Assembly (NCBI GenBank): GCA_017473605.1
Contig: JAFUKM010000003.1
Span: 1-49,347, forward strand
Length of the DNA: 49,347 bases
DNA from: Clostridia bacterium
GTDB taxonomy: Bacteria > Bacillota > Clostridia > Christensenellales > Borkfalkiaceae
Reading direction: 5' to 3'
How positions within the stretch are numbered: the stretch's first letter is position 1; every line of letters begins with the position of its first letter. Positions 6,259-39,866 of this stretch are shown piece after piece. The translations under genes were made by a program, and so were the position numbers. The notes beneath the pieces were generated by a model that saw only the letters and a program-made list of their open reading frames with translations, was not told where the DNA came from and ran no database searches.

Positions 6259-6525
6259 GCAGCAGTGGCGAGCTGTCACTCCCAAATTTTCCGTTATCGT
6301 TTATAAATAGCGTTATCATAGACGTGGGGTTAAGGGGCATAGTCCCTTATGGGGTGTAGGGGCAACGCCCTTACGACGCTCTGTCAAGAGCCGCCGATAG
6401 GCGGATAATAGCCCTAATAAAAGCAACCGTAGGTTGCGCTCCCAACGCCGTTAGGCGTTTATGCGGCGAGCCGCCGCTCCCAAGTCTTCCGTTATCGTTT
6501 ATAAATAGCGTTATCATAGACGGGG
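6259..6525 (+). repeat. Family-1 multi-hairpin repeat, full copy A
   Basis: Fills the dprA-topA gap and begins 3 bases after the dprA stop. Consecutive hairpins: TAAGGG/CCCTTA (6331-6349), GTAGGGGC/GCCCTTAC (6356-6374), CTCT/AGAG (about 6380-6390), CCGCC/GGCGG (6391-6404), GCAACC/GGTTGC (6423-6437), AACGCC/GGCGTT (6444-6459), GCGGC/GCCGC (6463-6474). The core is flanked by an identical 34-base direct repeat at 6291-6324 and 6489-6522. No gene, transposase or target-site duplication was seen. The rest of the gap, to 6580, is AT-rich and holds the topA ribosome-binding site. Confidence 0.85.
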
Positions 6526-6580
6526 AGAAAATGAAAAAAGTAAAAATTTTTTATAGCAATATAGCAAAAAGGAATACGAA

Positions 6581-8935
6581 ATGGAACTTATCATCGTAGA
6601 GTCGCCTTCCAAGGCAAAAACCATCTCCAAGTATCTCAAAGGTCAATACCGCGTAGACGCGTCGGCGGGGCATATCCGCGATTTACCCGTGCATACGCTG
6701 GGGGTAGACGTGCATAACAATTTCGAGCCGAACTACGTCAATTCGGACGGAAAAGAAGACGTTATCCGCCGTTTAACGGAAGCGACGAAGAAAGCGGACA
6801 GAGTTTATCTTGCAACCGACCCCGACAGAGAAGGGGAAGCGATTGCTTGGCATTTGCAAACGGTGCTCGGCTTGGACGAACAGGGCAAAAACAGAATCGA
6901 GTTTAACGAAGTGAGTAAAACGGCGATAGAGAACGCGTTAAAAAAGCCGCGTACCATCGATTACGATTTGGTAGACGCACAGCAAGCTCGTCGCGTGCTG
7001 GATAGACTCGTGGGGTATAAGCTTTCTACGCTTCTCAATCATAAAATCGAAGACAAAAACGGCAACGGCAAACGTTCGCTTTCGGGCGGCAGAGTGCAAT
7101 CGGTTGCGCTCCGTTTGGTCGTAGAAAGAGAGCGCGAAATCGCGGCGTTCAAACCGGAAGAATATTGGAATTTAACGGCGGAGCTTCGGGATAAAGCGAA
7201 GGCATACGCGCCGTTTAAAGCGATGATGGAAAAACGCGGCAACCGTAAATATAAGCCGTCGTCTGCGGAAGAAACGGCGCAGGTTTTGGCGGCGATTGAA
7301 CGGGGCGAATTTAAGGTTGTAAAAGTCAAGAAAGCGGTGGTAAAATCGCACGCTCCCGCGCCTTTCACGACTAGCTCGTTGCAACAGGACGCTTCGACGA
7401 AATTGGGCTTTACCGCGCCCGAAACGATGACGCTCGCGCAGCACTTGTACGAAGGTATCGACACGGAAAACGGCGACCATATCGCGTTTATCACGTATAT
7501 GCGTACGGACTCGGTGCGCGTTTCGAAAGAAGCGCAGTATAAAGCGCTTGATAAAATCAAAGAAGTGTACGGGGCGGATTACGTACCCGAAAAACCGAAT
7601 TTTTACGCTTCAAAAAAGGGCGCGCAGGACGCGCACGAGGCGATTCGTCCCATCGATTTGGAAATGACGCCCGAAAAAGCGAAAAAGCTTTTGGACAGAA
7701 AGCATTTTGCGCTTTATAAATTGGTATACGAACGCTTCTTGGCTTCGCAAATGTCGGAAGCAAAATACAACAGCGCACAAATGGAAATCGATAACAGCGG
7801 CTATATTTTCAAGGCAAGCGGCAAAGTATTGTTATTTGCGGGCTTCACGGCGGTATACCAAGACGTATCGGCGAAAAAAGACGACGAAGACGGCGTAGAC
7901 GTATCCAAACTTTTGCCCGATTTAAAGGAAGGGGATATTCTCGATTTGGTATCGATGCAAAAAGAGCAAAAATTCACGAAACCGCCCCTTCGTTATACGG
8001 ACGCGTCGCTCGTTAAAACGATGGAAGAAAAGGGGATTGGCAGACCGTCTACGTACGCGACGATTATTTCGAAGCTTATGCAAAAGTACGTCAAGAAAGA
8101 AGGCAAATATATGGTGCCGACGGCGGTTGCGTACGACGTTGTGGATATGCTCGTCCAATGCTTTGTAGACGTTATGGACGTCGGCTTTACGGCAGGAATG
8201 GAAACGAAGCTGGACGATATTGAAGAAGGCGGCGTAAATTGGCGCGCGGTCATCGGGGATTTCTATCCCGATTTTGAAAAGAACTTGCGCAAAGCTTCCA
8301 ATTACGGCGACGAACAAACGCAGATAACCTGTGAAAAATGCGGACATTTTATGCTGCGCAGAATGGGCAAATTCGGTAAATACTTGGCGTGTTCGAACTA
8401 TCCCGAGTGTCATAATATCGTCAGCGAAACCAAGGAAGAAATTTCGGCTATGCGTTGTCCCAAGTGCGGAGAGAATATGGTGGTCAAGAGCGGTAAATTC
8501 GGCAAATTCTTGGCGTGCCCCAACTATCCCGAATGTAAATCGACAATGCCTATGCCTACGGACGAAGAAGTAAAATACGTCGGAAAATGCCCCGAATGCG
8601 GTAACGCAATGACGGTAAGAAAATCGAAAAAGGGCAAGGAATATTACAGCTGTTCGGGTTATCCCACGTGTAAGTTTATGAGCTGGGATATTCCTACGGG
8701 CGAGAAATGCCCCGCGTGCGGCGACGCATTGGTGAATACGGCGCGCGGCAACGTGAAGTGTAGCAATAAAGACTGCGATTTCCGTATCAAGTACACGAAA
8801 GCGGAAAAAGCGGAAAAGGCGAAGAAAGCGGAAGCCGCGGAAGTCGTCAACGATTTCGAAGCGCCGCCCCTGATGGACGAACCGCCCGAGGTCGGTAACG
8901 GCGGCTATATTTTCAACGGCTACGACGACGAGTGA
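6581..8935 (+). CDS. topA: DNA topoisomerase I
   Basis: Type IA topoisomerase of 784 residues that relaxes negative supercoils through a tyrosine-DNA intermediate. The TOPRIM domain opens with VESPSKAKTISKYLKG and contains DPDREGEAIAWHL. The catalytic tyrosine is Tyr306 in ITYMRTDSVRVS. Four zinc ribbons follow from about residue 580 (CEKCG...CSNYPEC, CPKCG...CPNYPEC, CPECG...CSGYPTC, CPACG...CSNKDC), one more than many homologues. The tail is acidic. The start has an AAGGAA ribosome-binding site. Both ends of the gene abut family-1 repeats. Confidence 0.97.
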   Translation: MELIIVESPSKAKTISKYLKGQYRVDASAGHIRDLPVHTLGVDVHNNFEPNYVNSDGKEDVIRRLTEATKKADRVYLATDPDREGEAIAWHLQTVLGLDEQGKNRIEFNEVSKTAIENALKKPRTIDYDLVDAQQARRVLDRLVGYKLSTLLNHKIEDKNGNGKRSLSGGRVQSVALRLVVEREREIAAFKPEEYWNLTAELRDKAKAYAPFKAMMEKRGNRKYKPSSAEETAQVLAAIERGEFKVVKVKKAVVKSHAPAPFTTSSLQQDASTKLGFTAPETMTLAQHLYEGIDTENGDHIAFITYMRTDSVRVSKEAQYKALDKIKEVYGADYVPEKPNFYASKKGAQDAHEAIRPIDLEMTPEKAKKLLDRKHFALYKLVYERFLASQMSEAKYNSAQMEIDNSGYIFKASGKVLLFAGFTAVYQDVSAKKDDEDGVDVSKLLPDLKEGDILDLVSMQKEQKFTKPPLRYTDASLVKTMEEKGIGRPSTYATIISKLMQKYVKKEGKYMVPTAVAYDVVDMLVQCFVDVMDVGFTAGMETKLDDIEEGGVNWRAVIGDFYPDFEKNLRKASNYGDEQTQITCEKCGHFMLRRMGKFGKYLACSNYPECHNIVSETKEEISAMRCPKCGENMVVKSGKFGKFLACPNYPECKSTMPMPTDEEVKYVGKCPECGNAMTVRKSKKGKEYYSCSGYPTCKFMSWDIPTGEKCPACGDALVNTARGNVKCSNKDCDFRIKYTKAEKAEKAKKAEAAEVVNDFEAPPLMDEPPEVGNGGYIFNGYDDE

Positions 8936-9142
8936 GCCACCGCTGGCGAGTTTTTCTATCTTTCGTTAACGCTTGGAAGATAGGTTATCGTGGACGATAT
9001 AGGTCAAGGAACGAGGTTCCTTGCGCGGCGCAGGGCGCGTAGCTCTGCGACGCTCTGTTAAGAGTTGCCCGTAGGGCAAAACACAGCCCCAAAAAAGCAA
9101 AACGTAGTTTTGCGTTAATCAACGTCGCAAGGCGTTCGTCTA
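8936..9142 (+). repeat. Family-1 multi-hairpin repeat, copy B
   Basis: Begins at the topA stop codon and ends about 15 bases before trmFO. Stems match copy A in order but differ in sequence while staying paired: CAAGGAAC/GTTCCTTG (9005-9023), GCAGGGC/GCTCTGC (9030-9048), TTGCCC/GGGCAA (9065-9079), GCAAAAC/GTTTTGC (9097-9113), and AACGTC/GGCGTT (9121-9136), the only stem with a weakened pair. The 3' flanking module is missing. Confidence 0.82.
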
Positions 9143-9156
9143 AAAAGAGTAAGTGT

Positions 9157-10470
9157 ATGGAAAAAGCAAAAGAAGTTATTGTAATCGGCGGCGGCTTGGC
9201 AGGCTGTGAAGCGGCGTATTATTTGGCGGAGCAAGGAATAAACACGACGCTCGTCGAAATGAAGCCGCAGAAGTTTACGGCGGCGCACGAGAGTGAAAAT
9301 TTAGGCGAGCTTGTTTGTTCGAACTCGCTCAAAAGCAACGATTACTTTGCGAACGCTTGCGGACTCTTGAAGGAAGAAATGCGCCGTATCGGCTCGCTGA
9401 TTATCCATTCGGCGGACGCGACGAGCGTACCCGCAGGCGCGGCTTTGGCTGTGGACAGAGAAAAGTTTTCTTCGTATATCACGGAGAAGATAAAAACGCA
9501 CCCGAATATCACGGTAAAAAGCGAAGAAGTCACGGCGTTACCGTCCACGCAAGCGCGCTACGTCATCGTGGCAACGGGACCTTTGACGAGCGACGCTTTA
9601 AGCAAAGATATTCAAGAAAAATTCGGTAAAGATTTACATTTTTACGACGCGTCCGCGCCGATAGTTTCGGCGGAAAGTATCGATATGGATTGCGCGTTTA
9701 CAGGGGATAGATACGGCAAGGGTACGGGCGATTATATAAACTGCCCGATGAATAAGGAAGAATATTATGCGTTTGTGGACGAGCTGTTAAAGGCGGAAAA
9801 AGCGCATTTGCACGATTTTGAAAAAGGAGAAATATTCGAAGGGTGCATGCCCTTGGAAGTAATGGCGTCAAGGGGAAAAGACACTTTGCGCTACGGCACG
9901 TTAAAGCCCGTGGGGCTTTTCGACGGAGACGGGAAACGCCCGTACGCGGTGTTGCAGCTTCGTAAAGAGAACGAAAACGGCACGGCGTATAATCTCGTGG
10001 GTTTTCAAACGAACTTAAAATTCCCCGAGCAAAAACGGGTATTTTCGATGATACCCGCATTGAAAAACGCAGAGTTTTTACGCTATGGCGTTATGCACAG
10101 AAATACGTTTATCTATTCGCCTCGCGTTTTGAACCGCAATTTTTCGGTTAAGAATAATCAAAGACTGTTTTTTGCAGGACAAATTACGGGTGTGGAAGGA
10201 TACGTGGAAAGCGCGGCAAGCGGTTTGCTTGCGGCGATAGCCGTGGCGGACGAAATTTTAGAAAGAGAGCCGTTTGTTTTGGACGATACAACGGTATGCG
10301 GCGCGTTGCAAACGTATATTTCTACGCCGAATAAAGATTTTCAACCGATGAACGCCAATTTCGGTATTTTAGCGCCTTTGCCTACGCGAATCAAAGACAA
10401 AAAAGAGCGGTATAAAACGTTGGCGTTGCGCGCGTTGGAAACGGTGGAAACCGCATTAAAAAAGCAGTAA
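9157..10470 (+). CDS. trmFO: tRNA uridine-54 C5-methyltransferase (folate, FAD)
   Basis: Flavoprotein that makes ribothymidine at position 54 of the tRNA T-loop using methylenetetrahydrofolate. The 437-residue protein starts with the FAD-binding IGGGLAGCEAAYYLAEQG and the family-typical HESENLGELVCSNSLKS; GQITGVEGYVESAASGLLA lies near the C-terminus. The ribosome-binding site is weak. It heads a tight run with hslV, hslU, hisS and trxA. The placement after topA is the standard Bacillota order, except that xerC, usually between trmFO and hslV, is absent. Confidence 0.96.
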   Translation: MEKAKEVIVIGGGLAGCEAAYYLAEQGINTTLVEMKPQKFTAAHESENLGELVCSNSLKSNDYFANACGLLKEEMRRIGSLIIHSADATSVPAGAALAVDREKFSSYITEKIKTHPNITVKSEEVTALPSTQARYVIVATGPLTSDALSKDIQEKFGKDLHFYDASAPIVSAESIDMDCAFTGDRYGKGTGDYINCPMNKEEYYAFVDELLKAEKAHLHDFEKGEIFEGCMPLEVMASRGKDTLRYGTLKPVGLFDGDGKRPYAVLQLRKENENGTAYNLVGFQTNLKFPEQKRVFSMIPALKNAEFLRYGVMHRNTFIYSPRVLNRNFSVKNNQRLFFAGQITGVEGYVESAASGLLAAIAVADEILEREPFVLDDTTVCGALQTYISTPNKDFQPMNANFGILAPLPTRIKDKKERYKTLALRALETVETALKKQ

Positions 10471-10494
10471 ATATTCTCAAAGAAGGAGAGAACA

Positions 10495-11049
10495 ATGGAA
10501 TTTAGAGGAACAACGATTTGCGCCGTGAAAAAGAACGGCGTAACGGCGATTGCAGGCGACGGGCAAGTTACGCTCGGCGAGCAGGTTATTTTCAAAAACA
10601 CAGCGATAAAAGTACGCCGTATTTTCGGCGGAAAGGTCATTTTGGGCTTTGCGGGTTCGGTTACGGACGCATTTGCGCTCACCGAGCGTTTCGAAGGGAT
10701 GCTCAATAAATTTTCGGGCAATCTCATGCGTTCGGCGGTAGAGCTTGCGGAGCTTTGGAGAAGCGATAAAATCGGCAGAAAGCTGGACGCGATGATGATA
10801 ACGGCGGACGAAAATACGCTTCTTATCCTGTCGGGCACGGGCGAAGTTATCGAGCCGGACGAAGGGGTATGCGCGATAGGCAGCGGCGGCAATTACGCCT
10901 TGGCGGCGGCGCGCGCGTTGTATCAGGAAACGGATTACGACGCGGCGACGATAGCGACGAAAGCGTTGAAAATCGCTTCGGAAATTTGCGTGTTCACCAA
11001 CGACAATATCCGTTTGGAAACGGTTGGCGAAAAGGTAAAGGAGGCGTAA
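10495..11049 (+). CDS. hslV: HslV/ClpQ protease subunit
   Basis: Proteasome-like peptidase of 184 residues that assembles as two hexameric rings capped by HslU. The N-terminal threonine nucleophile must be exposed by processing; here the start MEFRGTTI places Thr6 or Thr7 at the equivalent position. Family sequence includes [26 protein letters not shown] and [25 protein letters not shown] ribosome-binding site fixes the start, and hslU begins one base after the stop. Confidence 0.96.
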
Positions 11050-11050
11050 T

Positions 11051-12358: not shown

Positions 12359-12371
12359 AAAGGAAACCATT

Positions 12372-13622: not shown

Positions 13623-13648
13623 AAATACTGTAAAAAAGGGGAAGAACA

Positions 13649-14487: not shown

Positions 14488-14613
14488 CTTCCCCTTGACG
14501 GGAAGGTGGCAAGCTGCCACTCCCGAGTCTTTCTATCTTTCGTTAGCGTTTATAAATAGCGTTATCGCCACCCTGCGCCCTTTCCCGTCATTGCGAGCGA
14601 AGCGTGGCAATCT
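14488..14613 (+). repeat. Solo family-1 flank module plus REP-like palindrome
   Basis: Two hairpins, CTTCCC/GGGAAG (14488-14505) and GTGGC/GCCAC (14506-14520), lead into the TTTCTATCTTTCG...AAATAGCGTTATCG module (14529-14567) that otherwise flanks family-1 cores; the core is missing. At 14586-14613 lies CGTCATTGCGAGCGAAGCG and its continuation to GGCAATCT, a REP-like palindrome I have met in unrelated bacteria. Together with the next array this accounts for the 14453-14826 gap, which has no gene. Confidence 0.7.
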
Positions 14614-14625
14614 CAATACAAATCC

Positions 14626-14708
14626 CAGCCACAACTTTTGTCCGTAACACGGACAAAAAACTTCACTTTCGCTCACGGCGAAAACTTCACTACGCAGTAA
14701 CTTCCCTT
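14626..14708 (+). repeat. Family-2 AACTTCACT hairpin array 1
   Basis: Starts with AGCCACAAC, then TTTTGTCCGT/ACGGACAAAA (14636-14658), AACTTCACT (14659-14667), TTTCGC/GCGAAA, AACTTCACT (14683-14691), ACT/AGT mini-palindrome, then a truncated AACTTC. The linkers are exact; the palindromes share no sequence. Confidence 0.8.
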
Positions 14709-17757: not shown

Positions 17758-18837
17758 GTGAAGATTATACATACGGGCGATATCCATATCGGTTCGGTAT
17801 TGCACAATTTACCGAGCGACAAAGCGAGCTTGCGAAAAGCTGAAATCTTGGACGGATTTCGGCGCATTTGCGCGTACGCAAAGGATAACGGCGTAACGGC
17901 GGTGCTTATCGTCGGGGATTTATTCGAGGAAAACGAAATCGCGTCCGATTTAAAAAAAGAAGTCTTCACGGCGATAGAGCAAGCAAAACCCGTACTCTTT
18001 TTCTACGTAACGGGCAACCACGATATCGGGATATCGCTTGGGCAAACGCCCGAAAATTTCCTGCGTTTTTCGCAAAACAAAGGTTGGGCAAGCTATGCGC
18101 TTGGTGAAAATATCACGGTAACGGGATTGGATGCGGAATATTTCTCCGCGCATAATTTTTCCGCTCTTTCCCTTTCGCCCGACAATTACAATATCGTGCT
18201 GCTGCACGGGGATATACAGGGTAAGCAAGGGGGCAAAGATACCTTGCCTGCGCAGTATTTGCAAAACAAATATATAGACTATTTGGCACTCGGGCATATT
18301 CATACGCCCGACGCGGTAGCAAAACGCTTGGACGCAAGGGGCAGATACCGTTATTGCGGCTGTCCCGAAGGCAGGGGCTTTGACGAAACGGGGAAGAAGG
18401 GTTTTTTCCTTTTGGAGATAGAACGGGGTGCTTTGATAGACGAAAAATTCTATACGTTCGCGCGCCGTGAAGCGGTGGAAAAACGGGTGGATATTTCCGC
18501 TTGCAACGGCTATGCGGATATCGAAGCGGCGGCGTTAACCGCTTTGCAAAACGAGCGTAAGGAAAACGTAATCAAATTGGTGCTTTGCGGAACGTATAAA
18601 GAAGGTATGCGTAAAGATACGCGCCTGCTTGCTTCCCGCCTTTGCGAACGCTTTTTCCACGTAAAGGTAGTGGACGAAAGCCGTTTGTATATCGATTCGA
18701 ATAGCTATATGAACGACTGTACGGAGCGCGGCGAATTTATCCGCGAAATAGCAAAATACAATATAGACCCGCTATTGAAAGAAGAAATTTTAGAAGTAGG
18801 GTTAAAGGCGCTTGCCGGGGAGGAAATCGAACTGTGA
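17758..18837 (+). CDS. SbcD/YhaO-type metallophosphoesterase nuclease
   Basis: DNA exonuclease subunit of the Mre11/SbcD class, 359 residues, expected to bind two Mn ions. All five phosphoesterase motifs are present: GDIHIGS, VGDLFE, GNHD, LLHGDIQG and ALGHIH. It starts at GTG with AAAGGAG ten bases upstream. It overlaps the following ATPase gene by four bases (GTGA), so the two are made together. The partner resembles B. subtilis YhaN more than SbcC, so YhaO is the closer analogue. The role is inferred to be repair of double-strand ends or hairpins. Confidence 0.88.
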   Translation: MKIIHTGDIHIGSVLHNLPSDKASLRKAEILDGFRRICAYAKDNGVTAVLIVGDLFEENEIASDLKKEVFTAIEQAKPVLFFYVTGNHDIGISLGQTPENFLRFSQNKGWASYALGENITVTGLDAEYFSAHNFSALSLSPDNYNIVLLHGDIQGKQGGKDTLPAQYLQNKYIDYLALGHIHTPDAVAKRLDARGRYRYCGCPEGRGFDETGKKGFFLLEIERGALIDEKFYTFARREAVEKRVDISACNGYADIEAAALTALQNERKENVIKLVLCGTYKEGMRKDTRLLASRLCERFFHVKVVDESRLYIDSNSYMNDCTERGEFIREIAKYNIDPLLKEEILEVGLKALAGEEIEL

Positions 18838-21195: not shown

Positions 21196-22989
21196 ATGGC
21201 AAGTACGGTCAAAACGCTTATCAAGAGCGTAAGGGAATACAAAAAGCCGTCGATAATCACGCCGTTTTTTATGGCGGTGGAAGCTTTTTGTGAGTGTTTA
21301 ATTCCGTTTTTTATGTCGAAGATGATAGACCAAAGCGCATTGTCGCAAGCGAACGCAATGCGGCATATTTTAACGTACGGCGGCATATTGTTGGCGCTTG
21401 CGGCGCTGTCGATGTTGACGGGCGGTTTGGCAGGCAAGTTTGCGGCGACGGCAAGCTGCGGGTTTGCGAAAAATTTACGGCACGATTTATTTTATAGGGT
21501 GCAAAAATTCTCGTTTTCGAACGTGGATAAATTCTCCACGTCGTCGCTCGTTACCCGTTTGACGACGGACGTCACCAACGTGCAGCAATCGTACCAAATG
21601 TGTTTGCGTATCGCAATCCGCGTTCCGTTGCAGTTTATTTTCGCGATTGTAATGAGCTTTGTCATCAATCCGAACTTGGCTTGGATATTCGTATGCGTCG
21701 TGCCTGTATTGGGGATTTTGATATTCTCGATAGTGCGTTACGTTATGCCGTTTTTCCGTCGGATTTTTAAAAAGTACGACGCGCTCAATAACTCGGTGCA
21801 GGAAAACGTAGGCGGTATCCGCGTCGTCAAATCGTTCGTGCGCGAAAAACACGAAACGGAAAAATTCGAAAAAGCGGCGGGGGAAGTAAGAAACGATTTC
21901 ACGAAAGCGGAAAAAATCCTTGCGCTCAACTCGCCGATTATGACGCTGTTTATCAACGTGGCGGTGTTGATTATTTCCTTCTTCGGTGCGAAACTGATTA
22001 TGAACACGGCAACGATAGGCGCGAACAAAGAAGTGGTGGGCGAATTTTTACCCACCGAGCTTTCCGCGCTCATTACCTACGGCGTGCAAATTCTGTCCGC
22101 GCTGATGATGTTCTCTATGGTATTCGTCATGATTACGATGTCGCTTGAATCGGCGCGAAGAATCAGCGAAGTATTGAACGAAGAATCGGACGTCGTCAGT
22201 CCCAAAGACGGCGTTACGCAGGTCAAAGACGGCGAAATCCGTTTTGAAAACGTGAGTTTCAAATACTCGTCGAAAGCGGAAAACTACGCGCTTTCGGATA
22301 TCGACTTAACGATAAAATCGGGCGAAACGGTAGGTATATTGGGCGGTACGGGTTCGTCGAAAACAACGCTTATTCAGCTTATTCCCCGCTTGTACGATAC
22401 GACGGACGGCGCAGTATACGTGGGCGGCGTCAACGTTAAGGATTACGATTTGGACGCTTTGCGAAAGGAAGTTTCGGTGGTATTGCAAAAGAACGTACTC
22501 TTTTCGGGTACGATAAAGGAGAATTTGCGTTGGGGGGACGAGAACGCGACGGACGAAGAGATAGAACGCGTTTGTAAACTCGCCCAAGCGGACGAATTTA
22601 TCCGCTCTTTCCCCGACGGCTACGATACGTATATCGAACAGGGCGGCACGAACGTTTCGGGCGGTCAAAAACAACGCCTTTGTATTGCGAGAGCGCTGCT
22701 CCGCAAACCGAAAATTTTAATCTTGGACGATTCGACGAGCGCGGTAGACACCAAAACGGACGCGTTGATTCGTCACGCGTTCAAGGAAGAAATCCCCGAC
22801 ACGACGAAGATTATCATCGCGCAACGCGTGTCGTCGGTGGAACACGCCGACCAAATTTTGATTTTAGACGGCGGTAAAATCATTGCGAAAGGCAACCATA
22901 ACACGCTTATGGAAACGAGCGAAATTTATCGCGAAATATACGAAGCGCAAACGAAAGGGAACGCTTCGGAAGAAGGGGGTGAAGCGTAA
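21196..22989 (+). CDS. ABC exporter subunit with degenerate ATP site
   Basis: Half-transporter of 597 residues: a six-helix exporter domain (about 20-320) and a nucleotide-binding domain. Walker A is GGTGSSKTT near residue 381, the signature is VSGGQ, and Walker B ends LDDSTSAVD, with Asp in place of the catalytic Glu. In heterodimeric exporters one subunit typically carries such a non-hydrolytic site. The next gene overlaps by one base and supplies the complete site. The substrate is unknown; drug, peptide and lipid export are all possible. The ribosome-binding site is AAAGGAG. Confidence 0.93.
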   Translation: MASTVKTLIKSVREYKKPSIITPFFMAVEAFCECLIPFFMSKMIDQSALSQANAMRHILTYGGILLALAALSMLTGGLAGKFAATASCGFAKNLRHDLFYRVQKFSFSNVDKFSTSSLVTRLTTDVTNVQQSYQMCLRIAIRVPLQFIFAIVMSFVINPNLAWIFVCVVPVLGILIFSIVRYVMPFFRRIFKKYDALNNSVQENVGGIRVVKSFVREKHETEKFEKAAGEVRNDFTKAEKILALNSPIMTLFINVAVLIISFFGAKLIMNTATIGANKEVVGEFLPTELSALITYGVQILSALMMFSMVFVMITMSLESARRISEVLNEESDVVSPKDGVTQVKDGEIRFENVSFKYSSKAENYALSDIDLTIKSGETVGILGGTGSSKTTLIQLIPRLYDTTDGAVYVGGVNVKDYDLDALRKEVSVVLQKNVLFSGTIKENLRWGDENATDEEIERVCKLAQADEFIRSFPDGYDTYIEQGGTNVSGGQKQRLCIARALLRKPKILILDDSTSAVDTKTDALIRHAFKEEIPDTTKIIIAQRVSSVEHADQILILDGGKIIAKGNHNTLMETSEIYREIYEAQTKGNASEEGGEA

Positions 22990-24965
22990 TGGCACAGGCA
23001 ACCACCCAAAGAAGAGTTATGCCCAAAGGACCTATGCGCGGACGGGGTATGCCCGTACCCAAGGGCGCGATTCAAAAAGGCACGTTGGGCAGATTGTTAA
23101 AAACGGCGTTCAAGTACTACAAATGGCAACTCATCGTCGTATTCGTATGTATTCTTATCAGCTCGACAGGTAGCTTGATATCGTCGTTGTTTACGAAAAC
23201 GCTTATCGACGAAATTATCCCCAAGGGCGTAGCGAACGGCTTTGCGGCGGCTGCAAGCGACCTGCTCAAATTGATATTGGTCATGGGCGCTATGTACGGC
23301 GTCGTCGTGCTTGCCACGTTCTTTTACAATCGGTTGATGGCGACGGTTACGCAGGGGCTTTTGTACCATTTGCGAACGGATATGTTCAAAAAAATGCAAA
23401 CGTTGCCGATTAAGTACTTCGATACGCACGCGCACGGCGAGATTATGAGCGCGTATACCAACGATACGGACGCAACGAGACAGCTTATCGGTCAAAGCTT
23501 ACCGTCGGTAATGAGTAACGTTTTAACGTTGCTCGTATCGATAGGCGTAATGCTGACGTTCAGCTTTTGGTTGTCGCTCGTGGTATTAGGCTCTACGCTT
23601 TTAATGACGTTTATCGTGAAGAAGATTGGCGGCAACAGCGCGAAATATATGGTGGCGCAGCAAACGTCGCTCGCAGAAGAAGAAGGTTTCGTGGAAGAGA
23701 TGATGAAGGGGCAAAAGGTCGTCAAAGTCTTTACCCACGAAGAGAAAGCGAAGGAAGATTTCGATGCGCATAACGCAAAGCTGTTCAAGGATAGCGAACG
23801 CGCGCACGTATTCGGGAATATCTTAGGACCGATTATCGGCAACGTAGGTAATTTCAATTACGTGCTGCTTACGATTATCGGCGGACTGTTCTTAACGATG
23901 GGTTGGACGAATTACGGGTTTATCAACGTATTTTCGGGCGGCGGCTTGTTGGAAATCGGTATCATCGTATCGTTTTTGGGTATGTCGCGGAACTTTGCAA
24001 TGATTATCAACCAACTTTCCCAACAAATCTCGATGATAGCAATGGGTATGGCTGGTGCGAGCCGTATTTTCAAATTGATGGACGAAGAGCCCGAACAAGA
24101 CGAAGGGTACGTTACGCTCGTCAATGCGATAGAAGACGAAAACGGCAACTTGACGGAAACGGAAAAGCGTACGGGCGTATGGGCGTGGAAACACTATCAT
24201 AAAGCGGACGGCACGACGACGTATACCCGTTTGCGCGGCGATATCGTAATGGATATGGTGGATTTTTGTTACGTGCCTGAAAAACAGGTATTGACGGACG
24301 TAACGCTGTACGCAAAGCCCGGGCAAAAGATAGCGTTTGTCGGCGCGACGGGCGCGGGCAAAACGACGATAACCAACCTTATCAACCGCTTCTACGATAT
24401 TGCGGACGGCAAAATCCGCTACGACGGTATCAATATCAATAAAATCAAAAAGAGCGACTTGCGCCGCTCGCTGGGGATAGTTTTGCAGGATACCAACCTG
24501 TTTACGGGTACGGTCATGGAGAATATCCGTTACGGTAGATTAGACGCAACGGACGAAGAGTGCGTCGAAGCGGCAAAGCTTGCGAACGCGGACGATTTTA
24601 TCCGTCGTTTGCCCGAAGGGTATAATACGTTGCTTACGAACAACGGCGCGAATTTATCGCAAGGTCAACGCCAGCTTCTCTCGATAGCGCGCGCGGCGGT
24701 GGCGGACGCGCCTGCGATGATATTGGACGAAGCGACGTCGTCGATAGACACGCGCACGGAAGCGCTCGTCAACGACGGTATGGACAAATTGATGCAGGGC
24801 AGAACGGTATTTGTGATAGCGCATAGATTATCGACGGTAAGAAACGCCAACGCGATAATGGTTCTCGACCACGGCAAAATTATCGAACGCGGCACGCACG
24901 AACAGTTGATTGAACAGAAGGGCGTGTATTATCAGCTTTACACGGGCGCTTTTGAACTTGAATAA
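22989..24965 (+). CDS. ABC exporter subunit with canonical ATP site
   Basis: Partner half-transporter of 658 residues. It has a basic, Gly/Pro-rich N-terminal tail of about 40 residues (MPKGPMRGRGMPVPKG), six transmembrane helices, a 60-residue charged insertion between membrane and nucleotide-binding domains (around GVWAWKHYHKADGTTTY), and a complete nucleotide site: Walker A GATGAGKTT near residue 450, signature LSQGQ, Walker B MILDEATSSID with catalytic Glu. The pair therefore forms an asymmetric exporter. The TAATG overlap with the upstream gene indicates coupled translation. Confidence 0.94.
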   Translation: MAQATTQRRVMPKGPMRGRGMPVPKGAIQKGTLGRLLKTAFKYYKWQLIVVFVCILISSTGSLISSLFTKTLIDEIIPKGVANGFAAAASDLLKLILVMGAMYGVVVLATFFYNRLMATVTQGLLYHLRTDMFKKMQTLPIKYFDTHAHGEIMSAYTNDTDATRQLIGQSLPSVMSNVLTLLVSIGVMLTFSFWLSLVVLGSTLLMTFIVKKIGGNSAKYMVAQQTSLAEEEGFVEEMMKGQKVVKVFTHEEKAKEDFDAHNAKLFKDSERAHVFGNILGPIIGNVGNFNYVLLTIIGGLFLTMGWTNYGFINVFSGGGLLEIGIIVSFLGMSRNFAMIINQLSQQISMIAMGMAGASRIFKLMDEEPEQDEGYVTLVNAIEDENGNLTETEKRTGVWAWKHYHKADGTTTYTRLRGDIVMDMVDFCYVPEKQVLTDVTLYAKPGQKIAFVGATGAGKTTITNLINRFYDIADGKIRYDGININKIKKSDLRRSLGIVLQDTNLFTGTVMENIRYGRLDATDEECVEAAKLANADDFIRRLPEGYNTLLTNNGANLSQGQRQLLSIARAAVADAPAMILDEATSSIDTRTEALVNDGMDKLMQGRTVFVIAHRLSTVRNANAIMVLDHGKIIERGTHEQLIEQKGVYYQLYTGAFELE

Positions 24966-25168
24966 GCGGAGAACCTCCGCTGGCGAGTTTTTCTATCTTT
25001 CGGTATCGCTTTTTTGTAACGTTATCGTAAACAAGGAGTCAAGAGGCATTGTCTCTTGCGGATGGTAAAGGCAGAGCCTTTACGACTCTCTGTCAAGAGC
25101 CGCCGATAGGCGGAAGAAAAGCCCCAAGAAAAGCAACCGCAGGTTGCGCTCCAACGCCGATAGGCGTT
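24966..25168 (+). repeat. Family-1 multi-hairpin repeat, copy D
   Basis: Starts at the exporter stop codon with GCGGAG/CTCCGC (24966-24980), then the flank module, CAAGAG/CTCTTG (25040-25058), GTAAAGGC/GCCTTTAC (25065-25083, perfect 8 bp), CCGCC/GGCGG (25100-25113), GCAACC/GGTTGC (25133-25147) and AACGCC/GGCGTT (25153-25168). There is no 3' flank module. With the following terminator it occupies the 24966-25272 gap. Confidence 0.85.
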
Positions 25169-26005: not shown

Positions 26006-26083
26006 TGCCAAAACTTTTTCCAAAGGAAAAAACTTCACTTGATTTATCAAACTTCGCTTTTGCCCCAAGGCAAAAACTTCACT
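26006..26083 (+). repeat. Family-2 AACTTCACT hairpin array 2
   Basis: Palindromes TTTTTCC/GGAAAAA, TTGAT/ATCAA and TTTTGCC/GGCAAAA are separated by AACTTCACT (26031-26039), the variant AACTTCGCT (26050-26058) and AACTTCACT (26075-26083). It lies just beyond the mnmG terminator. Confidence 0.78.
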
Positions 26084-30711: not shown

Positions 30712-30788
30712 GCGAAGCTACTGTACTACGCCATAGGCGTAAATGCACTTGCGTAAGCGAACTTTACTTAATACGGTGCTTCACTTTA
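30712..30788 (+). repeat. Family-2 array 4, decayed
   Basis: Contains the intact palindrome TACGCC-ATA-GGCGTA (about 30728-30742) and a TTGCG-TAAG-CGAA hairpin, but the linkers are degraded (TGCACTTGC, AACTTTACT, GCTTCACTT). It ends about 10 bases before the next start codon. Confidence 0.55.
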
Positions 30789-33997: not shown

Positions 33998-34003
33998 AAT
34001 CAG

Positions 34004-34203
34004 GTGAAGTTTTTACGCAATGCGTAAAAGATAACTTTGTCTAACGACAAGTGAAGTTTTCCGCGTCGCGGAAAGTGAAGTTTTTTGTCCGCTTTGCGGA
34101 CAAAAAGTTAATGCTTATATAAATAAAACCACAACTTTTTTGCGTACACGCAAAAAAACTTTACTGCGAAGCAACTTCACTACGCCATAGGCGTAACTTC
34201 ACT
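34004..34203. repeat. Family-2 arrays 5a/5b, head to head
   Basis: Reverse array: GGTGAAGTT, TTTTACGC/GCGTAAAA (34011-34029), TTGTC/GACAA, AGTGAAGTT (34050-34058), TTCCGC/GCGGAA, AGTGAAGTT (34074-34082), TTTTTGTCCGC/GCGGACAAAAA (34082-34106). Forward array: ACCACAAC (34128-34135), TTTTTTGCGT/ACGCAAAAAA, AACTTTACT, GC-GAA-GC, AACTTCACT (34173-34181), TACGCC/GGCGTA, AACTTCACT (34195-34203). It fills the asnS-plsX gap and ends 26 bases before plsX. Confidence 0.85.
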
Positions 34204-34229
34204 TAAATTCACTCAAAAGGAGACAGCAT

Positions 34230-35285
34230 ATGATTAAAATCGTAGCAGATGCAATGGGCGGCGATTTCGCCCCCGTAGAACAGGTAAAAGGCGTTGTAGC
34301 CGCGCTCAATAGCAATAAAGATATCAGCGTCATTTTGGTGGGAGACGAAACGCAAATCAAAGCGGAACTTGCCAACCATAAATACGACGAAAGCCGTTTG
34401 GAAATCGTACATACGACGGAAACCATCGGTATGGAAGAAATCCCGACGAAAGCGGTAAAGACGAAAAAAGATTCTTCGCTCGTGGTAGCGTTCCGTATAC
34501 TCAAAGAAGGCAAGGCGGACGCGCTTGTATCGTCGGGTTCGACGGGGGCGGTGCTTACGGCGGGCGTGCTCATCTTGGGCAGATTGAAAGGGGTATCCCG
34601 TCCCGCGCTTTGTCCCGCTATCCCCAATTACCGCGGAGAAAGCACGTTTATTTGCGATTGCGGGGCAAACTTGGAGTGTAAACCCGTCAATCTCGTGCAT
34701 TTTGCGGTAATGGCTTCGGCGTACGCGGAAGCGGTGTACGGCGTGAAGAATCCGCGCGTAGGGCTTCTCAATAACGGTACGGAAGACCATAAGGGGTTAT
34801 TGTTGCAACAGGAAGTCAACCATTTGCTCAAAGAAACGGATTGTATCAACTACGTAGGCAACGTTGAAGGCAGAGAATTGATGTACGGCGATATCGACGT
34901 AATGGTTTCGGACGGATTTTCGGGTAATATCGCCACGAAGTCGGTAGAAGGCTGCGCGAAAGCGGTATCGACGATTTTGAAGAACGAATATAAGCGCAAT
35001 ATTTTTACGAAAATAGCGGCGCTCTTCTCGACGGGCGTTATCAAGAATATCAAGAAGAATCTCGATTACGAAGGCAAGGGCGGCGCAATGTTCTTAGGCT
35101 TGCAAAAAGCGGTAGTGAAAGGGCACGGCAACTCGAAAGAACGCGCGTTTGCGGTATGTATCGAGCAAGCGGCGAACGCCGTTCGCGGAGATATGGTCGG
35201 CAAGATGAAAGAAAAGATAGATAAAGTCAATATGGACCAACTCGCCGAAACGGCAAAGACGGCGGCGGAAAACGGGGCGCAGTAA
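34230..35285 (+). CDS. plsX: Phosphate acyltransferase PlsX
   Basis: Makes acyl-phosphate from acyl-ACP for the PlsY step of phospholipid synthesis. The 351-residue protein has the family start IVADAMGGDFAP, SSGSTGAVLTAG, NVEGRELMYGDIDVMVSDGFSGN and a C-terminal amphipathic helix. The ribosome-binding site is AAAAGGAGA. It overlaps rnc by one base. acpP, which normally lies between plsX and rnc, is missing. Confidence 0.96.
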   Translation: MIKIVADAMGGDFAPVEQVKGVVAALNSNKDISVILVGDETQIKAELANHKYDESRLEIVHTTETIGMEEIPTKAVKTKKDSSLVVAFRILKEGKADALVSSGSTGAVLTAGVLILGRLKGVSRPALCPAIPNYRGESTFICDCGANLECKPVNLVHFAVMASAYAEAVYGVKNPRVGLLNNGTEDHKGLLLQQEVNHLLKETDCINYVGNVEGRELMYGDIDVMVSDGFSGNIATKSVEGCAKAVSTILKNEYKRNIFTKIAALFSTGVIKNIKKNLDYEGKGGAMFLGLQKAVVKGHGNSKERAFAVCIEQAANAVRGDMVGKMKEKIDKVNMDQLAETAKTAAENGAQ

Positions 35286-35950
35286 TGCACGCCGTTTTTT
35301 CGGAAATAGAAGAAAAAATCGGATATCGGTTTCGGGATAAAGATTTGCTGAAAGAAGCGTTCACGCACGCCACGTACGCGCATTTGCACGGCGGGAAGGA
35401 TAACGAACGTGTCGAATTTTTAGGGGATACGGTCTTGCAGTTTGCCATCACCGACTATTTGTATAAAAAATACCCTGAAAAGACGGAAGGCGAGCTCACC
35501 CGTTTGCGCGCGAAGCTCGTTTGCGAAGAATCGCTTTTGGGCGCGGTGGAAAACTACGGCTTGGGCAAATATTTGCGTGTCGAAGGGAGTAAAGCCAACG
35601 TAGGGAAAAAGACGTATTCCAGCTTGTTCGAAACGGTAACGGGCGCAATCTATTTGGACGGCGGTTACGAACAGGCGAAGGAATTTATCTTCCGTAGCGG
35701 ACTTGTGGAAAGCGCGCCGAAAGACAAAGACGCGAAATCGCTTTTGCAGGAATATTTGCAAGGCTTGCATAAAGAGCCGCCGAAATACGCAAGCGTGAAG
35801 GAAGGCAAGGATAACGCGCCCACCTTCCGCTGTCAAGCGAGCGCTTTGGGAAAGACGGCGACGGGCGCAGGTAAAAGCAAAAAAAGCGCGGAGCAAGAAG
35901 CCGCAAAGCGGCTTTTAACGTTGCTCCGACAATCAAAAGGTAAAAAATAA
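35285..35950 (+). CDS. rnc: Ribonuclease III
   Basis: Double-strand RNA endonuclease of 221 residues that matures rRNA and mRNAs. The nuclease domain has NERVEFLGDTVL, giving Glu44 and Asp48 of the catalytic set, and Glu116 in SSLFETVTGAIYLDGG. In that motif the family consensus A-D-x-F-E becomes S-S-L-F-E, so the metal-site Asp (Asp114 in E. coli) is Ser113 here. The double-strand-RNA-binding domain occupies residues 150-218. It overlaps plsX by one base and precedes smc, the usual order. Confidence 0.94.
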   Translation: MHAVFSEIEEKIGYRFRDKDLLKEAFTHATYAHLHGGKDNERVEFLGDTVLQFAITDYLYKKYPEKTEGELTRLRAKLVCEESLLGAVENYGLGKYLRVEGSKANVGKKTYSSLFETVTGAIYLDGGYEQAKEFIFRSGLVESAPKDKDAKSLLQEYLQGLHKEPPKYASVKEGKDNAPTFRCQASALGKTATGAGKSKKSAEQEAAKRLLTLLRQSKGKK

Positions 35951-35988
35951 AACTGTATTATACACATAATCACGGAAAGGAGTACATT

Positions 35989-38900
35989 TTGGATTTAAAA
36001 GAAATACAACTCGTGGGTTTCAAATCCTTTGCGGACAAAACGACGATTCGTTTTGAAGAAGGCGTAACGTGTATCGTAGGGCCGAACGGTTGCGGTAAGA
36101 GTAACGTAGCGGACGCCGTGCGTTGGGTGCTTGGCGAACAGTCTGCAAAATCGCTTCGCGGCTCGCAAATGCAAGACGTTATTTTCAGCGGTACGTTGGA
36201 ACGTAACCCGCAGCGTTCGTGCGAAGTTACGCTCGTGTTCGATAACAGCAACCGCATTTTCGATTTAGACGTTGCGGAAGTAGCGATGACGCGCCGTTTG
36301 CAGCGTGTAGGCGAAGATAAATTCGAGAGCAAATACCTTATTAACAATCAACCGAGCCGTTTGCGCGATTTGGTTGCGCTTTTCCACGGTATCGGCTTGG
36401 GCAAAGAAGGCTATTCGATTATCGGTCAAGGCAAAGTCGAACAAATTATGAACGCGAAACCGGAAGACCGCCGCTTGATTTTCGAAGAAGCGACGGGGCT
36501 TATGGTATTCAAATCGAGAAAACAGGAAATCGAGAGAAAGATAGAAGACTCCAACGATAATTTGTTCGTATACCGTCAACGCATCGATGAAGTGCAACGC
36601 CGTTTAGGGCCGCTTGCCAAACAGGCGGAGGCGGCGAAAGAGTATAACGAATATTCGGAAATGCTCAAAGACCACGAAGCCAATACGTATATCTACCGTT
36701 ACGAAAACGCGGAAAACGAAAAGGGCAAGTACAAGAAAGACATTGCGACGATTTCGGATAAGATTATCGATTTGAATACGAAAATCGAGCTTATCAACCG
36801 TAAAATAGAAGAGAATAGAGAAAAGATATCGCAAGCGGATATCCGCTTGACGGAGTTGAACGACCAAAGAGTCGTGCTTTCGGTAGGCAACGAGAGAAAG
36901 GACGGCGAGCTTCGTTTGGCGCAGGAGCGTATCAAGACTTACCGTTCGCAAATCGAAGCGGCGGGCGAAATGTTGGAAGCGAGCAAAATCCGTATCGGGG
37001 AAATCGACGACGAAATCGCGCTTGCGGGCAAGAAACACGAAGAAGACGTGAAAAAGGTTGCGGAGCTGGAAACGCAAACGGAAGTATTGCGCGCGGCGAT
37101 AGCGGCACTCGATAAGAAAATCGAAGTATTCGAAAAGCTTTCGGACGAGAACCGCCAAAGCCAGCTTTCGACGGCAGACGAGCTTTCGGAAATGAAGAAA
37201 AATCTCGGTACGCTGGAAGCGCGTATGGAAGCGACGAAAGACCGCCTTGCGGAAATCGAAGCGGCTATCAATAAGACAAATGAAAGAAAGGAACGTTTGG
37301 AAAACGAGCTTTCTTCGGTAAGAAAGGACTTAAAGCGCTTGCGCGAACTTACTTCTTCGGGGGTAAAAGAATTCGAAGAAAAGCAAGAAGAAGCGCGTGA
37401 AATGCAGCTCACAGTCAACGACTTTAACCAAGAACTGTTCAACGCCAACGGTCAAATCGCTTCGCTTCGCGAGAATTTGGAAATGTATATCAGCCTGAAA
37501 AACCGTTTCGACGGGTATAAAGATTCGGTAAGAAGACTGCTTTCGATATCCAAAACGAATCCCGACGTAGGCAGACACCTTCGCGGCGCGCTTGCGGACG
37601 TAGTATCGACGGAACAAAGATACGAAACGGCGATAGAAACGGCGTTTGGCGGCGCTATGCAAAACGTAGTAACGCCGACGGCGGACGACGCGAAATATTT
37701 GATTGAATACTTAAAGCGCACGGGCGGCGGTATCGTAACGTTTTTGCCGGTAGCAAGTATGCGTCCCCGTCCCGATTCACGTGAAATCCGTCGCGCGCTG
37801 GAAGAACGCGGCGCAATGGGTCTTGCGACGGAACTCGTACAGTACGACGAGTATTATTATAACGTCATTTCCAATCTTTTGGGCAATACTCTTATATGCG
37901 ACAATATCGCCAATGCGACGACGATAGCAAAGAAATACGGCAATATGTTCAAAATCGTAACCTTGGACGGCGACTTGATTGCCACCAGCGGTTCGATGAC
38001 GGGCGGTAGCCGCGGCAGAAACACGGCTTCTCTTTTGTCGCACGAACGTAAAATCCAAGAATGCAAGGATAGCATAGCGGCGAAGCAAAAATACATAGAA
38101 AAGCTGAAAAAAGCGATTGCGGACAGCGAGAAGGCTCGGGAAGAAGCGGAAGCGGCGGTAGACGCGCTCCGTGAAAAGTACCAAGACGCGATGGGCGAAA
38201 TCGCGGCGCTTGCGCAACGCGAAACGGCGCTCAATCAGCAGATAGCGGAAACAGTCAGCGACGTGGAAACGTATTCGGCGGCGCTCGAAGAATTGCAATT
38301 CAAGCTCGCGCAGCTCCAATCGGAAGAAGCAAACTCTTCCATGAGCGAAGAAGAAATTTTATCGCGTAGACAAGGCGCGCAAGCGCAGCTCGAAACGCAG
38401 CGCAGCCAATGCGAAACGTTCAAAGAAGAGCGCGCGGTAAAGAGCGAAACGCTCCGCGCTTCGGAAATTGAATACACGACGAGAAAAGCGGCAATCGAAC
38501 AGTACGAAGAAACGGTTGCGCGTTTGACGGTGGAAAAAGAAGAACTCGTCAAGAAAATCGTCGATATGGAATACGAACGCACGGCAACGCAAACGAAGTT
38601 GAACGGCTTGGAAGCGGAAGCGGCGGAAAAGGAACTGACGGAAGAAGAGAAAGCGGCGGTACAGGCGATTGTAGACGAAATCAACGCGCTCTCGAAAGAA
38701 AAGGAAACAATCAACGCGCACCAGCTTTCTTTGGAAGAAGAAAAGACGTCTTTGCAAGAAACGCTGACGAAGCAATCGGACAAGCGTTATAAATGCGAAA
38801 TCGAAATCAGTAAAATCGACACCAATCTTGAAAATATGCGTGCAAGAGTCGAAGAAGCATACGGGCTTGATTACGAAGGTTGCTTGCCGTATAAAAAGGA

Positions 38901-39597
38901 AGATTATAACGTCGAAGAAGGCGCGAACACGATTACGGTATTAAAGCGTAAAATCACGATGCTGGGCGCTGTTAACCCCCACGCCGTTGAAGAATACGAA
39001 TACGAAAGCGCGCGTCACGAAGAGATGAGCGCGCAACGGGACGACTTGCAAAAAGCGATAGACGATTTGCAATCGGCGCTCGACGAAATCCGCGCGGAAA
39101 TGCTCCGTATTTTCAACGAAGGCTTCGATAAGATTAACGAGAACTTCAAAATCACGTTCAAAGAACTGTTCGGCGGCGGTAAAGCGGAATTGCAAATCGA
39201 TTACGTAGACGGCGAAGACCCGCTTGCGGCAGGTATCGAAATCGTCGCTTGTCCCCCCGGTAAGAAGCTGACGAAGATATCCCTGCTTTCGGGCGGTGAA
39301 AGAGCGTTAACGGCAATAGCGATACTTTTTGCCATCTTGCGTTCGCACCCGATGCCGTTCTGTATTTTGGACGAAATCGAAGCGGCGCTCGACGACGCGA
39401 ACGTGGATAGATTTGCGTCGTATTTGAAGCGTTTTGCCAAGGAAACGCAATTCATTGTAATCACGCACAGAAAACCGACGATGAACCAAGCCGATTCGCT
39501 CTTCGGCGTAACCATGCAGGAAAAGGGCGTATCGAAGATAGTGTCGGTAAAACTTGCGGAAGTAGAGAGCAAGCTCGGCGCAGGCACCGTCGAGTAG
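35989..39597 (+). CDS. smc: Chromosome partition protein Smc
   Basis: Condensin ATPase of 1202 residues that extrudes and aligns chromosome arms. Walker A is GPNGCGKSN near residue 33, long coiled coils flank a hinge at about 510-650, and the C-terminal head has the signature LSGGERALTAIAILFA and Walker B FCILDEIEAALDD. Translation starts at TTG with GGAAAGGAG eight bases upstream; no ATG gives a complete N-terminus. The stop codon lies inside the first hairpin of a family-1 repeat. Confidence 0.97.
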   Translation: MDLKEIQLVGFKSFADKTTIRFEEGVTCIVGPNGCGKSNVADAVRWVLGEQSAKSLRGSQMQDVIFSGTLERNPQRSCEVTLVFDNSNRIFDLDVAEVAMTRRLQRVGEDKFESKYLINNQPSRLRDLVALFHGIGLGKEGYSIIGQGKVEQIMNAKPEDRRLIFEEATGLMVFKSRKQEIERKIEDSNDNLFVYRQRIDEVQRRLGPLAKQAEAAKEYNEYSEMLKDHEANTYIYRYENAENEKGKYKKDIATISDKIIDLNTKIELINRKIEENREKISQADIRLTELNDQRVVLSVGNERKDGELRLAQERIKTYRSQIEAAGEMLEASKIRIGEIDDEIALAGKKHEEDVKKVAELETQTEVLRAAIAALDKKIEVFEKLSDENRQSQLSTADELSEMKKNLGTLEARMEATKDRLAEIEAAINKTNERKERLENELSSVRKDLKRLRELTSSGVKEFEEKQEEAREMQLTVNDFNQELFNANGQIASLRENLEMYISLKNRFDGYKDSVRRLLSISKTNPDVGRHLRGALADVVSTEQRYETAIETAFGGAMQNVVTPTADDAKYLIEYLKRTGGGIVTFLPVASMRPRPDSREIRRALEERGAMGLATELVQYDEYYYNVISNLLGNTLICDNIANATTIAKKYGNMFKIVTLDGDLIATSGSMTGGSRGRNTASLLSHERKIQECKDSIAAKQKYIEKLKKAIADSEKAREEAEAAVDALREKYQDAMGEIAALAQRETALNQQIAETVSDVETYSAALEELQFKLAQLQSEEANSSMSEEEILSRRQGAQAQLETQRSQCETFKEERAVKSETLRASEIEYTTRKAAIEQYEETVARLTVEKEELVKKIVDMEYERTATQTKLNGLEAEAAEKELTEEEKAAVQAIVDEINALSKEKETINAHQLSLEEEKTSLQETLTKQSDKRYKCEIEISKIDTNLENMRARVEEAYGLDYEGCLPYKKEDYNVEEGANTITVLKRKITMLGAVNPHAVEEYEYESARHEEMSAQRDDLQKAIDDLQSALDEIRAEMLRIFNEGFDKINENFKITFKELFGGGKAELQIDYVDGEDPLAAGIEIVACPPGKKLTKISLLSGGERALTAIAILFAILRSHPMPFCILDEIEAALDDANVDRFASYLKRFAKETQFIVITHRKPTMNQADSLFGVTMQEKGVSKIVSVKLAEVESKLGAGTVE

Positions 39598-39866
39598 CGA
39601 GCCGCTACGGGCGAGTCTTTCTATCTTTCGGTAACGCGTATATGTATACCGTCGATATGGGGTCAAGGGACGTGGTCCCTTGCGCGGTGCAGGACGCGCA
39701 GTCCTGCGACACTCTGTCAAGAGCCGCCCTTTGGGCGGAATGAAGCCCCCAGGAAAGCAACCGTAGGTTGCGCCCTAACGCCGTTAGGCGTTACTGCGGT
39801 GGCGAGCCACCGCCCCAAGTCTTTCTATCTTTCGGTATCGCTTATAAATAGCAATATCGTTGACAA
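39594..39866 (+). repeat. Family-1 multi-hairpin repeat, full copy E
   Basis: The first hairpin GTAGCG/CGCTAC (39594-39608) contains the smc stop codon. Core stems: CAAGGGAC/GTCCCTTG (39664-39682), GCAGGAC/GTCCTGC (39689-39707), CTCT/AGAG, CCGCCC/GGGCGG (39724-39738), GCAACC/GGTTGC (39757-39771), AACGCC/GGCGTT (39777-39792), GCGGTGGC/GCCACCGC (39796-39813). The flank module TTTCTATCTTTCGGTA occurs on both sides (39618 and 39821 on). With array 6 it fills the 39598-39995 gap. Confidence 0.87.

Follow-up and report, generated by a model that had tools for sequence, protein, structure and literature searches.

The subject of this report is a repeated intergenic element in a 49,347-nt stretch of DNA of a Clostridia bacterium (family Borkfalkiaceae; contig JAFUKM010000003.1, positions 1 to 49,347 of the forward strand), which we refer to as the window. 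The element is a real, strongly covarying, strand-specific interspersed repeat of BOX/BIME-like kind with fast turnover, dispersed in the intergenic regions of related, uncultured Clostridia of the gut. Its core of ~137 nt consists of six hairpins (P2-P7) and is common to the four window copies A, B, D and E. Our preferred reading, which we judge to be evenly balanced between right and wrong, is that selection acts on the folding of single-stranded DNA (ssDNA) of a non-coding, non-autonomous small interspersed repeat.

A first-pass annotation of the window had recognized four copies of a hairpin train, and all four were found where it placed them, with the stem arms it listed present in the sequence. 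The hairpin train stands as a core of six hairpins. On either side of it, the outermost sequence of these copies turned out to belong to a separate unit, S, that is also found solo. A covariance model (R1), built from the aligned copies of the source genome (n=14), matched the window contig at 6325-6461, 8999-9138, 25034-25170 and 39658-39794, with no fifth match at E <= 0.01. The stretch CTCTGTCAAGAG, previously described as a constant linker, is hairpin P4 (CTCT/AGAG), whose stem elsewhere reads GAC/GTC, CAAC/GTTG or CGCT/AGCG. Its loop is GTCA or GGCA in most copies, with GTTA found in copy B and ATCA at locus L005. An additional stem P1 (GGG/CCC), considered as the closing stem of a junction, is weak (81.8% paired in 150 copies) and is not claimed here.

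Pairing within the core is kept far more often than it is broken. The following figures are biased towards pairing, with copies selected by model score and alignments fitted to the model; copies picked in this way cannot include badly decayed ones, and the counts for P6 and P7 are affected by length variation in the alignment. Among the source-genome copies (n=14), 95.0% of pair cells pair, versus 88.4% with shuffled 3' letters and 32-54% with slid partners, a control that preserves the relatedness among copies; two-sided changes occur in 16 pairs versus 8.3. For 106 matches (90 distinct) the values are 94.7% paired versus 76.7% shuffled, with two-sided changes in 38 of 40 pairs. For 150 distinct copies they are 94.2% versus 75.9% shuffled and 30-49% slid (maximum 48.7%), and here all 40 pairs show two-sided changes. 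The covariation score amounts to 0.410 for the 106 matches and 0.428 for the 150 copies versus about 0.14.

Mutual-nearest copy pairs, binned by distance, allowed a comparison of rates. The change in stem versus unpaired columns is 0.006 versus 0.061 below 5% distance (5 pairs), 0.050 versus 0.095 at 5-10% (9 pairs), 0.097 versus 0.186 at 10-15% (13 pairs), 0.119 versus 0.253 at 15-20% (6 pairs) and 0.175 versus 0.282 at 20-30% (4 pairs). From the lowest to the highest class, two-sided changes number 0, 3, 20, 8 and 12, one-sided changes 0, 4, 11, 3 and 2, and changes involving a non-pair 1, 8, 11, 12 and 6. Judging from these counts and the slow stems across the distance classes, compensation seems to proceed in steps, as expected under selection, although pair breaks are not rare. 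Slow stems and the growth of two-sided changes with distance support the proposal of the first-pass annotation that selection acts on pairing as such, be it in RNA or in ssDNA. Its view of the linkers as steadier than the stems had to be given up, as unpaired columns are not steadier and change faster than stems between similar copies. We consider it improbable that the pairing is unselected and that replication template switching copies one arm onto the other and thereby keeps the hairpins perfect. This mechanism has been published (PMC8794818), whole-hairpin replacement is seen between neighboring tandem copies (P5 at L032, P7 at L089), and at 10-15% distance two-sided changes exceed one-sided ones (20 versus 11). 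However, it is opposed by the slower change of stems in the three lowest distance classes and by the 13 one-sided and pair-breaking changes versus 3 two-sided ones below 10% distance, and a strand-neutral process would not yield the large excess of GT over AC described below.

The source genome (G000; 1.11 Mb, 63% complete) holds 25 R1 matches at E <= 0.01, of which the top 19 at E <= 1.9e-20 are the high-scoring core copies counted for it. In a search with strict filters and many incomplete assemblies, R1 matched 25 of the 36 sampled congeners (1 to 44 matches each) and missed 11, while one of 24 genomes from other families of the order was matched. A broader model (R2) matched 31 of 396 genomes across the order, including the source genome and its closest relative, G061, both of the source genus, the other 29 all lying outside the family; in a sample of the phylum it matched 3 of 398, the source genome included. 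Distant R2 loci share chiefly P2-P3, within GC-rich trains (22 loci read). Such trains from other families of the same order (L165-L184), which are likewise without a family name, repeat the P2-P3 grammar GGGT-CAAGGGGC..GCCCCTTG-CGGGGT-hairpin in several cases; they differ from the core in being GC-rich and often consisting of P2-P3 alone. A generic pattern for GC-rich trains hit 0 of 398 phylum genomes and missed the source genome too, so that the exact pattern is too strict to be informative. A pattern scan of named genomes returned 36 stretches, all from metagenome-assembled 'Clostridiales/Clostridia bacterium' records, of which the RGIG records come from roe deer rectum or cecum; no viral contig carried the core pattern. 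Copies inside one genome resemble one another. In congeners, tandem core arrays with a period of ~165 nt were seen at L084, L085, L086 and L089, and at the last of these two adjacent copies are near-identical except for the letters of P2 and an entire P7, which is swapped.

G061 is syntenic with the window, which permits a gap-by-gap comparison. Its counterpart of the copy A gap is empty, that of B contains only an S-like remnant, that of D another repeat, and that of E an S-core-S arrangement with different stem alleles. At the empty copy A site no clear target duplication of the kind expected for a MITE was visible by eye, the intergenic letters having diverged. Comparing 19 source-genome loci with 12/15 G061 loci, both flanks match at two sites (E and L046) and one flank at two more. 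The orthologous copies L046 and L208, whose flanks show 86 and 88% identity, differ by a U-A to C-G change in both P5 and P7 and by G-U in P2 and P4, with no broken pair by reading. In the pair L164/L203, P2 changes from C-G to U-A and two P5 pairs become G-U, but P7 lacks two pairs. Furthermore, E/L202, L034/L291 and L038/L072 each share a gap but carry quite different stem alleles, and therefore replacement or conversion is indicated. The element shows the behavior and the high turnover of a small mobile-type repeat. These alleles, together with the resemblance of copies within a genome, would also suit a passive origin, in which hairpins are shuffled by recombination or gene conversion into genome-specific alleles that fold without current function. 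We regard this as an implausible account, given that conversion alone leaves the slow stems, the polarity and the loop choice unexplained.

The repeat is polar. Under a counting rule that is symmetric for both strands, single non-Watson-Crick pairs comprise 80 GT, 27 AC and 66 others; among distinct hairpins GT outnumbers AC by 42 to 14 (p = 2e-4), while a shuffled control gave 319 GT versus 351 AC. With DNA parameters the + strand fold is the stabler one in 130 of 150 copies, and with RNA parameters in 119 of 150; a single-loop energy table showed no loop-specific bonus. Relative to the flanking genes, 118 scored copies divide into 62 ++, 16 --, 20 +- and 20 -+. Pairing is 0.991 in both the 15 antisense (--) and the 59 sense (++) copies compared, with GT:AC ratios of 10:2 and 57:2, respectively. 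Because antisense copies pair as well and stay as polar as sense copies, polarity seems to travel with the element and not with the transcription of its neighbors. In a set of 63 copies, the upstream gene is on the + strand in 41, the downstream gene in 52, and the regional GC skew is positive in 47; where upstream gene and region disagree (22 copies), 10 copies agree with the gene and 12 with the region.

Position relative to genes bears on the main rival, in which the element acts in cis at the RNA level. Placed at messenger RNA (mRNA) 3' ends or between operon genes, the hairpin train would block 3'-5' exonucleases or, with its first hairpin directly at the stop codon, slow translation. The S unit, 60-70 nt long, has GCGGTGAGCCACCGC as its first hairpin, followed by GTCTTTCTATCTTTCG..., and precedes window cores as well as occurring solo; it is often found 5' of the core in the source species and those closest to it. 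For the source genome (fetched parts), 24 S-like sites were found, and at 14 of them an upstream stop codon lies 20-29 nt before the S motif, namely at -27 (seven sites), -20 (three), -26 (two), -29 and -23 (one each). The register is looser in G061, with a stop codon at -18 to -30 in 6 of 16 S-like sites of the fetched parts. By reading, TAA/TAG-type letters precede S units. A co-oriented upstream gene is present for 82 copies, and 50 of these begin no more than 100 nt from its end. At L046 (1501-1520) and L208 the upstream gene terminates inside the P2 arm (GGGTTAAGGGG), so that here the repeat supplies the stop codon, as has been reported for REPs (PMC3733652). A terminator-like hairpin followed by a T-run was found on the + strand inside none of cores A, B, D and E. 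On the - strand, P6 and the T-rich tail behind it are terminator-like in copies A, B and D (6423-6437, 9097-9113 and 25133-25147 of the window), as is P2 in D; core E has no such feature. This stop-codon register, the preference for ++ over -- copies and the G-U pairs kept on the + strand are what a cis-acting RNA would show, and there is precedent in REPs no more than 15 nt from a stop codon, reported to stall ribosomes (PMC12306157), and in 3'-end stem-loops linked to transcription (PMC1590033). Nevertheless, we rate an RNA function as rather unlikely in view of the equally paired and polar antisense copies and of loops in which triloops predominate and TTCG is missing (see below). Moreover, G061 lacks cores A, B and D in its corresponding gaps and 11 of 36 congeners are unmatched, under the strict filters and with the many incomplete assemblies mentioned above; therefore the adjoining genes seem not to need the repeat.

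The loops provide a means to compare RNA and ssDNA. Among 258 distinct perfect hairpins of the repeat, 167 have triloops and 75 tetraloops, and 232 have a 5'C-G3' closing pair. The tetraloops are of GNNA type in 57 of 75 cases (25 GNRA, 32 GNYA), with neither TNNC nor TTCG present, and the triloops include 43 GNA and 2 TNC out of 167. Background hairpins of at least 5 pairs, collected from 40 overlapping stretches of up to 20 kb with repeats masked and duplicates merged, differ from these and yielded 1010 triloops and 892 C-G closing pairs among 3601 hairpins, 60 GNNA, 66 TNNC and 8 TTCG among 1094 tetraloops, and 70 GNA among 1010 triloops. For terminator-like hairpins of the fetched loci the numbers are 80/352 triloops, 135/352 C-G, 15/141 GNNA and 6/80 GNA; the repeat differs from them in all four respects (Fisher p = 1e-25, 4e-41, 2e-22 and 6e-4, respectively). 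The sequence d(cGNNAg) represents a general class of stable DNA loops. Furthermore, d(GNA) triloops are stable in DNA, where a c-g instead of a g-c closing pair gains about 1.9 kcal/mol (PMC5815330). Loops in ribosomal RNA (rRNA) are reported to comprise 6% triloops and 42% tetraloops, and GNRA and CUUG to be stable in both DNA and RNA, UNCG in RNA only (PMC8794818). For the STAXI repeats, which resemble the core as tandem structured repeats, the question of RNA versus ssDNA has likewise been argued from loop type; they have pseudoknots and frequent UUCG loops, and these loops led to their being called RNA (PMC2864571). The core differs in that TTCG is missing from its 75 tetraloops and that loops of the types c(GNA)g and c(GNNA)g are numerous. 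Taken together, the loop types fit ssDNA better than RNA.

Under the preferred reading of ssDNA folding, the repeat would spread, be lost and recombine among intergenic sites. Its + strand may fold as ssDNA, for example while it lies open as lagging-strand template, and the resulting fold could be what is copied, moved or tolerated, so that selection, as we propose, would keep stable DNA hairpins. Landing at stop codons would be tolerated because the start signals of the next gene are spared, and any effects on mRNA ends would be secondary. Several of our observations weigh against this proposal. A mover, defined ends or a target duplication were not found. Energy models favor the + strand with either parameter set and do not separate RNA from DNA. 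The sense orientation is preferred and many copies lie near stop codons, as for transcribed hairpins; orientation tracks gene direction and regional skew about equally, which bears on the lagging-strand step. The antisense comparison rests on 15 -- copies, and in -+ and +- gaps (38 copies) pairing is lower (0.948 and 0.958) at GT:AC ratios of 21:11 and 13:7. Copies were selected by a score that rewards pairing. As to the loops, neither terminators nor background hairpins make an ideal RNA control, 176 triloops are already seen among 342 hairpins of 7 or more pairs from 120 loci, repeat included, and GNRA loops are stable in RNA and DNA alike. Finally, a crude count in Escherichia coli gave 9 GNRA and 0 GNYA loops in 16S rRNA, and 4 of each in 23S rRNA; GNYA is therefore not foreign to RNA, which weakens the argument from this loop type.

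A named family did not fit the repeat, in line with the first-pass annotation: the window is without an Rfam match at gathering score, and at E up to 5, applied to 39500-40000 only, two matches far below gathering score appeared, neither in the core. Titles and abstracts of the literature searched, mainly open-access, contained no description of this or a similar repeat. The core resembles BOX of Streptococcus pneumoniae, which is also built of modular intergenic hairpin units in variable number, is rare or absent in less related species, requires no protein of its own and may be co-transcribed; BOX is described as made of boxA/boxB/boxC modules and as having terminal inverted repeats, and a link to ISSpn2 has been proposed for it (PMC3049150). 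In the core, a modular order is seen, while no terminal inverted repeat was noticed by eye and no linked insertion sequence recognized. By description, not by sequence, the core further differs from BOX in that its stems vary freely, and not just the number of modules. With the REP/BIME/REPIN elements and TnpAREP the likeness lies in extragenic hairpins near stop codons and in complementary stem changes; REP termini supply stop codons, and ssDNA is the substrate in known REP cases (PMC6006769, PMC3733652, PMC12306157). The core likewise occurs as many extragenic hairpin copies near the ends of coding sequences, but it comprises six different hairpins in fixed order and not inverted pairs of one. 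Among the 435 hairpins of at least 6 pairs in 150 cores with 12-nt flanks, the REP tag GTAG/GTGG precedes the hairpin by 0-2 nt in only 4 when the + strand is read and in 15 of 435 when the - strand is read. By this tag test, the repeat is not a REP.

Candidate movers were considered as well. Matches to the Y1 transposase family Y1_Tnp (PF01797) occur in 14 of 41 genus genomes, including the copy-rich G029 and G031, and are lacking in G000, G004, G005, G006, G007, G010, G011, G023, G035 and G061. Among these, the copy-rich G061 (96%), G011 (94%) and G035 (93%) are near-complete, and therefore this transposase is not generally needed. Reverse transcriptase (RVT_1), which a group II intron or other element of this type would call for, was matched in 8 of 41 genus genomes, among them the carriers G005, G031 and G061, and not in the copy-rich G011 (94%), G029 (93%) and G035 (93%). 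Neither stands out as the mover, both being missing from some copy-rich near-complete genomes and present in other carriers. Among 487 proteins encoded within 2.5 kb of copies, reading recognized no transposase as a recurrent neighbor, with no family search run; the 25 largest clusters of neighboring proteins are, by reading, housekeeping proteins, ABC-transporter families or conserved unknowns.

Table 1 Features of the repeat in the window. ORF, open reading frame; the names topA-like and smc-like are our own reading of the respective genes.
Feature	Positions	Strand	Context or basis
Copy A, leading S unit	6257-6323	+	directly after stop codon of ORF 5402-6256
Copy A, core (P2-P7)	6326-6459	+	
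Copy A, trailing S unit	6462-6525	+	90% identity to leading S unit of copy A over 61 nt
Copy B, leading S unit	8936-9000	+	after stop codon of presumably topA-like ORF 6581-8935
Copy B, core	9001-9136	+	
Solo S unit, no core	14505-14567	+	
Copy D, leading S unit	24966-25030	+	after stop codon of ORF 22989-24965
Copy D, core	25034-25168	+	
Copy E, leading S unit	39598-39656	+	after stop codon of presumably smc-like ORF 35989-39597
Copy E, core, whole	39659-39792	+	
Copy E, P2, CAAGGGAC/GTCCCTTG	39664-39682	+	sequence and pair counts
Copy E, P3, GCAGGAC/GTCCTGC	39689-39707	+	sequence and pair counts
Copy E, P4, CTCT-GTCA-AGAG (the former 'linker')	39712-39723	+	sequence and pair counts
Copy E, P5, CCGCCC/GGGCGG	39724-39738	+	sequence and pair counts
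Copy E, P6, GCAACC-GTA-GGTTGC	39757-39771	+	sequence and pair counts
Copy E, P7, AACGCC-GTTA-GGCGTT	39777-39792	+	sequence and pair counts
Copy E, trailing S unit	39797-39866	+	

The window contains further repeats. A second family consists of short hairpins, among them GCGAAGC and GCGTAAGC types, whose stems differ while the CTTCACT linker between them is constant. It was seen at 14656-14708, 26013-26083, 30719-30760, 34010-34205, 39901-39980 and 41810-41880, and is missing from several counterpart gaps in G061. By a rule-based assignment, 18 of 25 of its units form the hairpin, all 18 with a C-G closing pair; the family is apparently unrelated to the six-hairpin core. A third family, CTTGCTCGTGTAC...GTACACTCCC..CTTGTCTTGCTCGTATCTCCGCCG, lies at 41596-41730 of the window and at L196 around 17905-18240 (G061:C12), and a relative stands in tandem at the copy D site in G061. 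S units are adjoined by CGTCATTGCGAGCGAAGCGTGGCAATCTC or a near variant at 14585-14615 of the window, L018 and L025; this sequence contains GCGAAGC, and we take it to be a repeat known from many other bacteria. Finally, a tandem 57-base repeat at 48330-49347 lies in an open frame and reaches the window end.

As a tentative generalization, which we would sooner doubt than assert, a whole class of bacterial intergenic repeats may show RNA-like covariation although the selected molecule is a train of ssDNA mini-hairpins with c(GNA)g and c(GNNA)g loops on one strand, the CTTCACT family following a similar rule. Covariation is widely regarded as the best evidence for functional RNA; if the generalization is true, covariation alone would be no proof of RNA, and loop grammar would be usable to discriminate between RNA and ssDNA. 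Should the ssDNA reading of the present repeat hold, screens for RNA discovery would need a DNA-hairpin null, and selection on Clostridia repeats at the level of ssDNA would become testable. If instead the RNA reading wins, each genome in species of this genus would hold as many as forty or so structured elements without a name.

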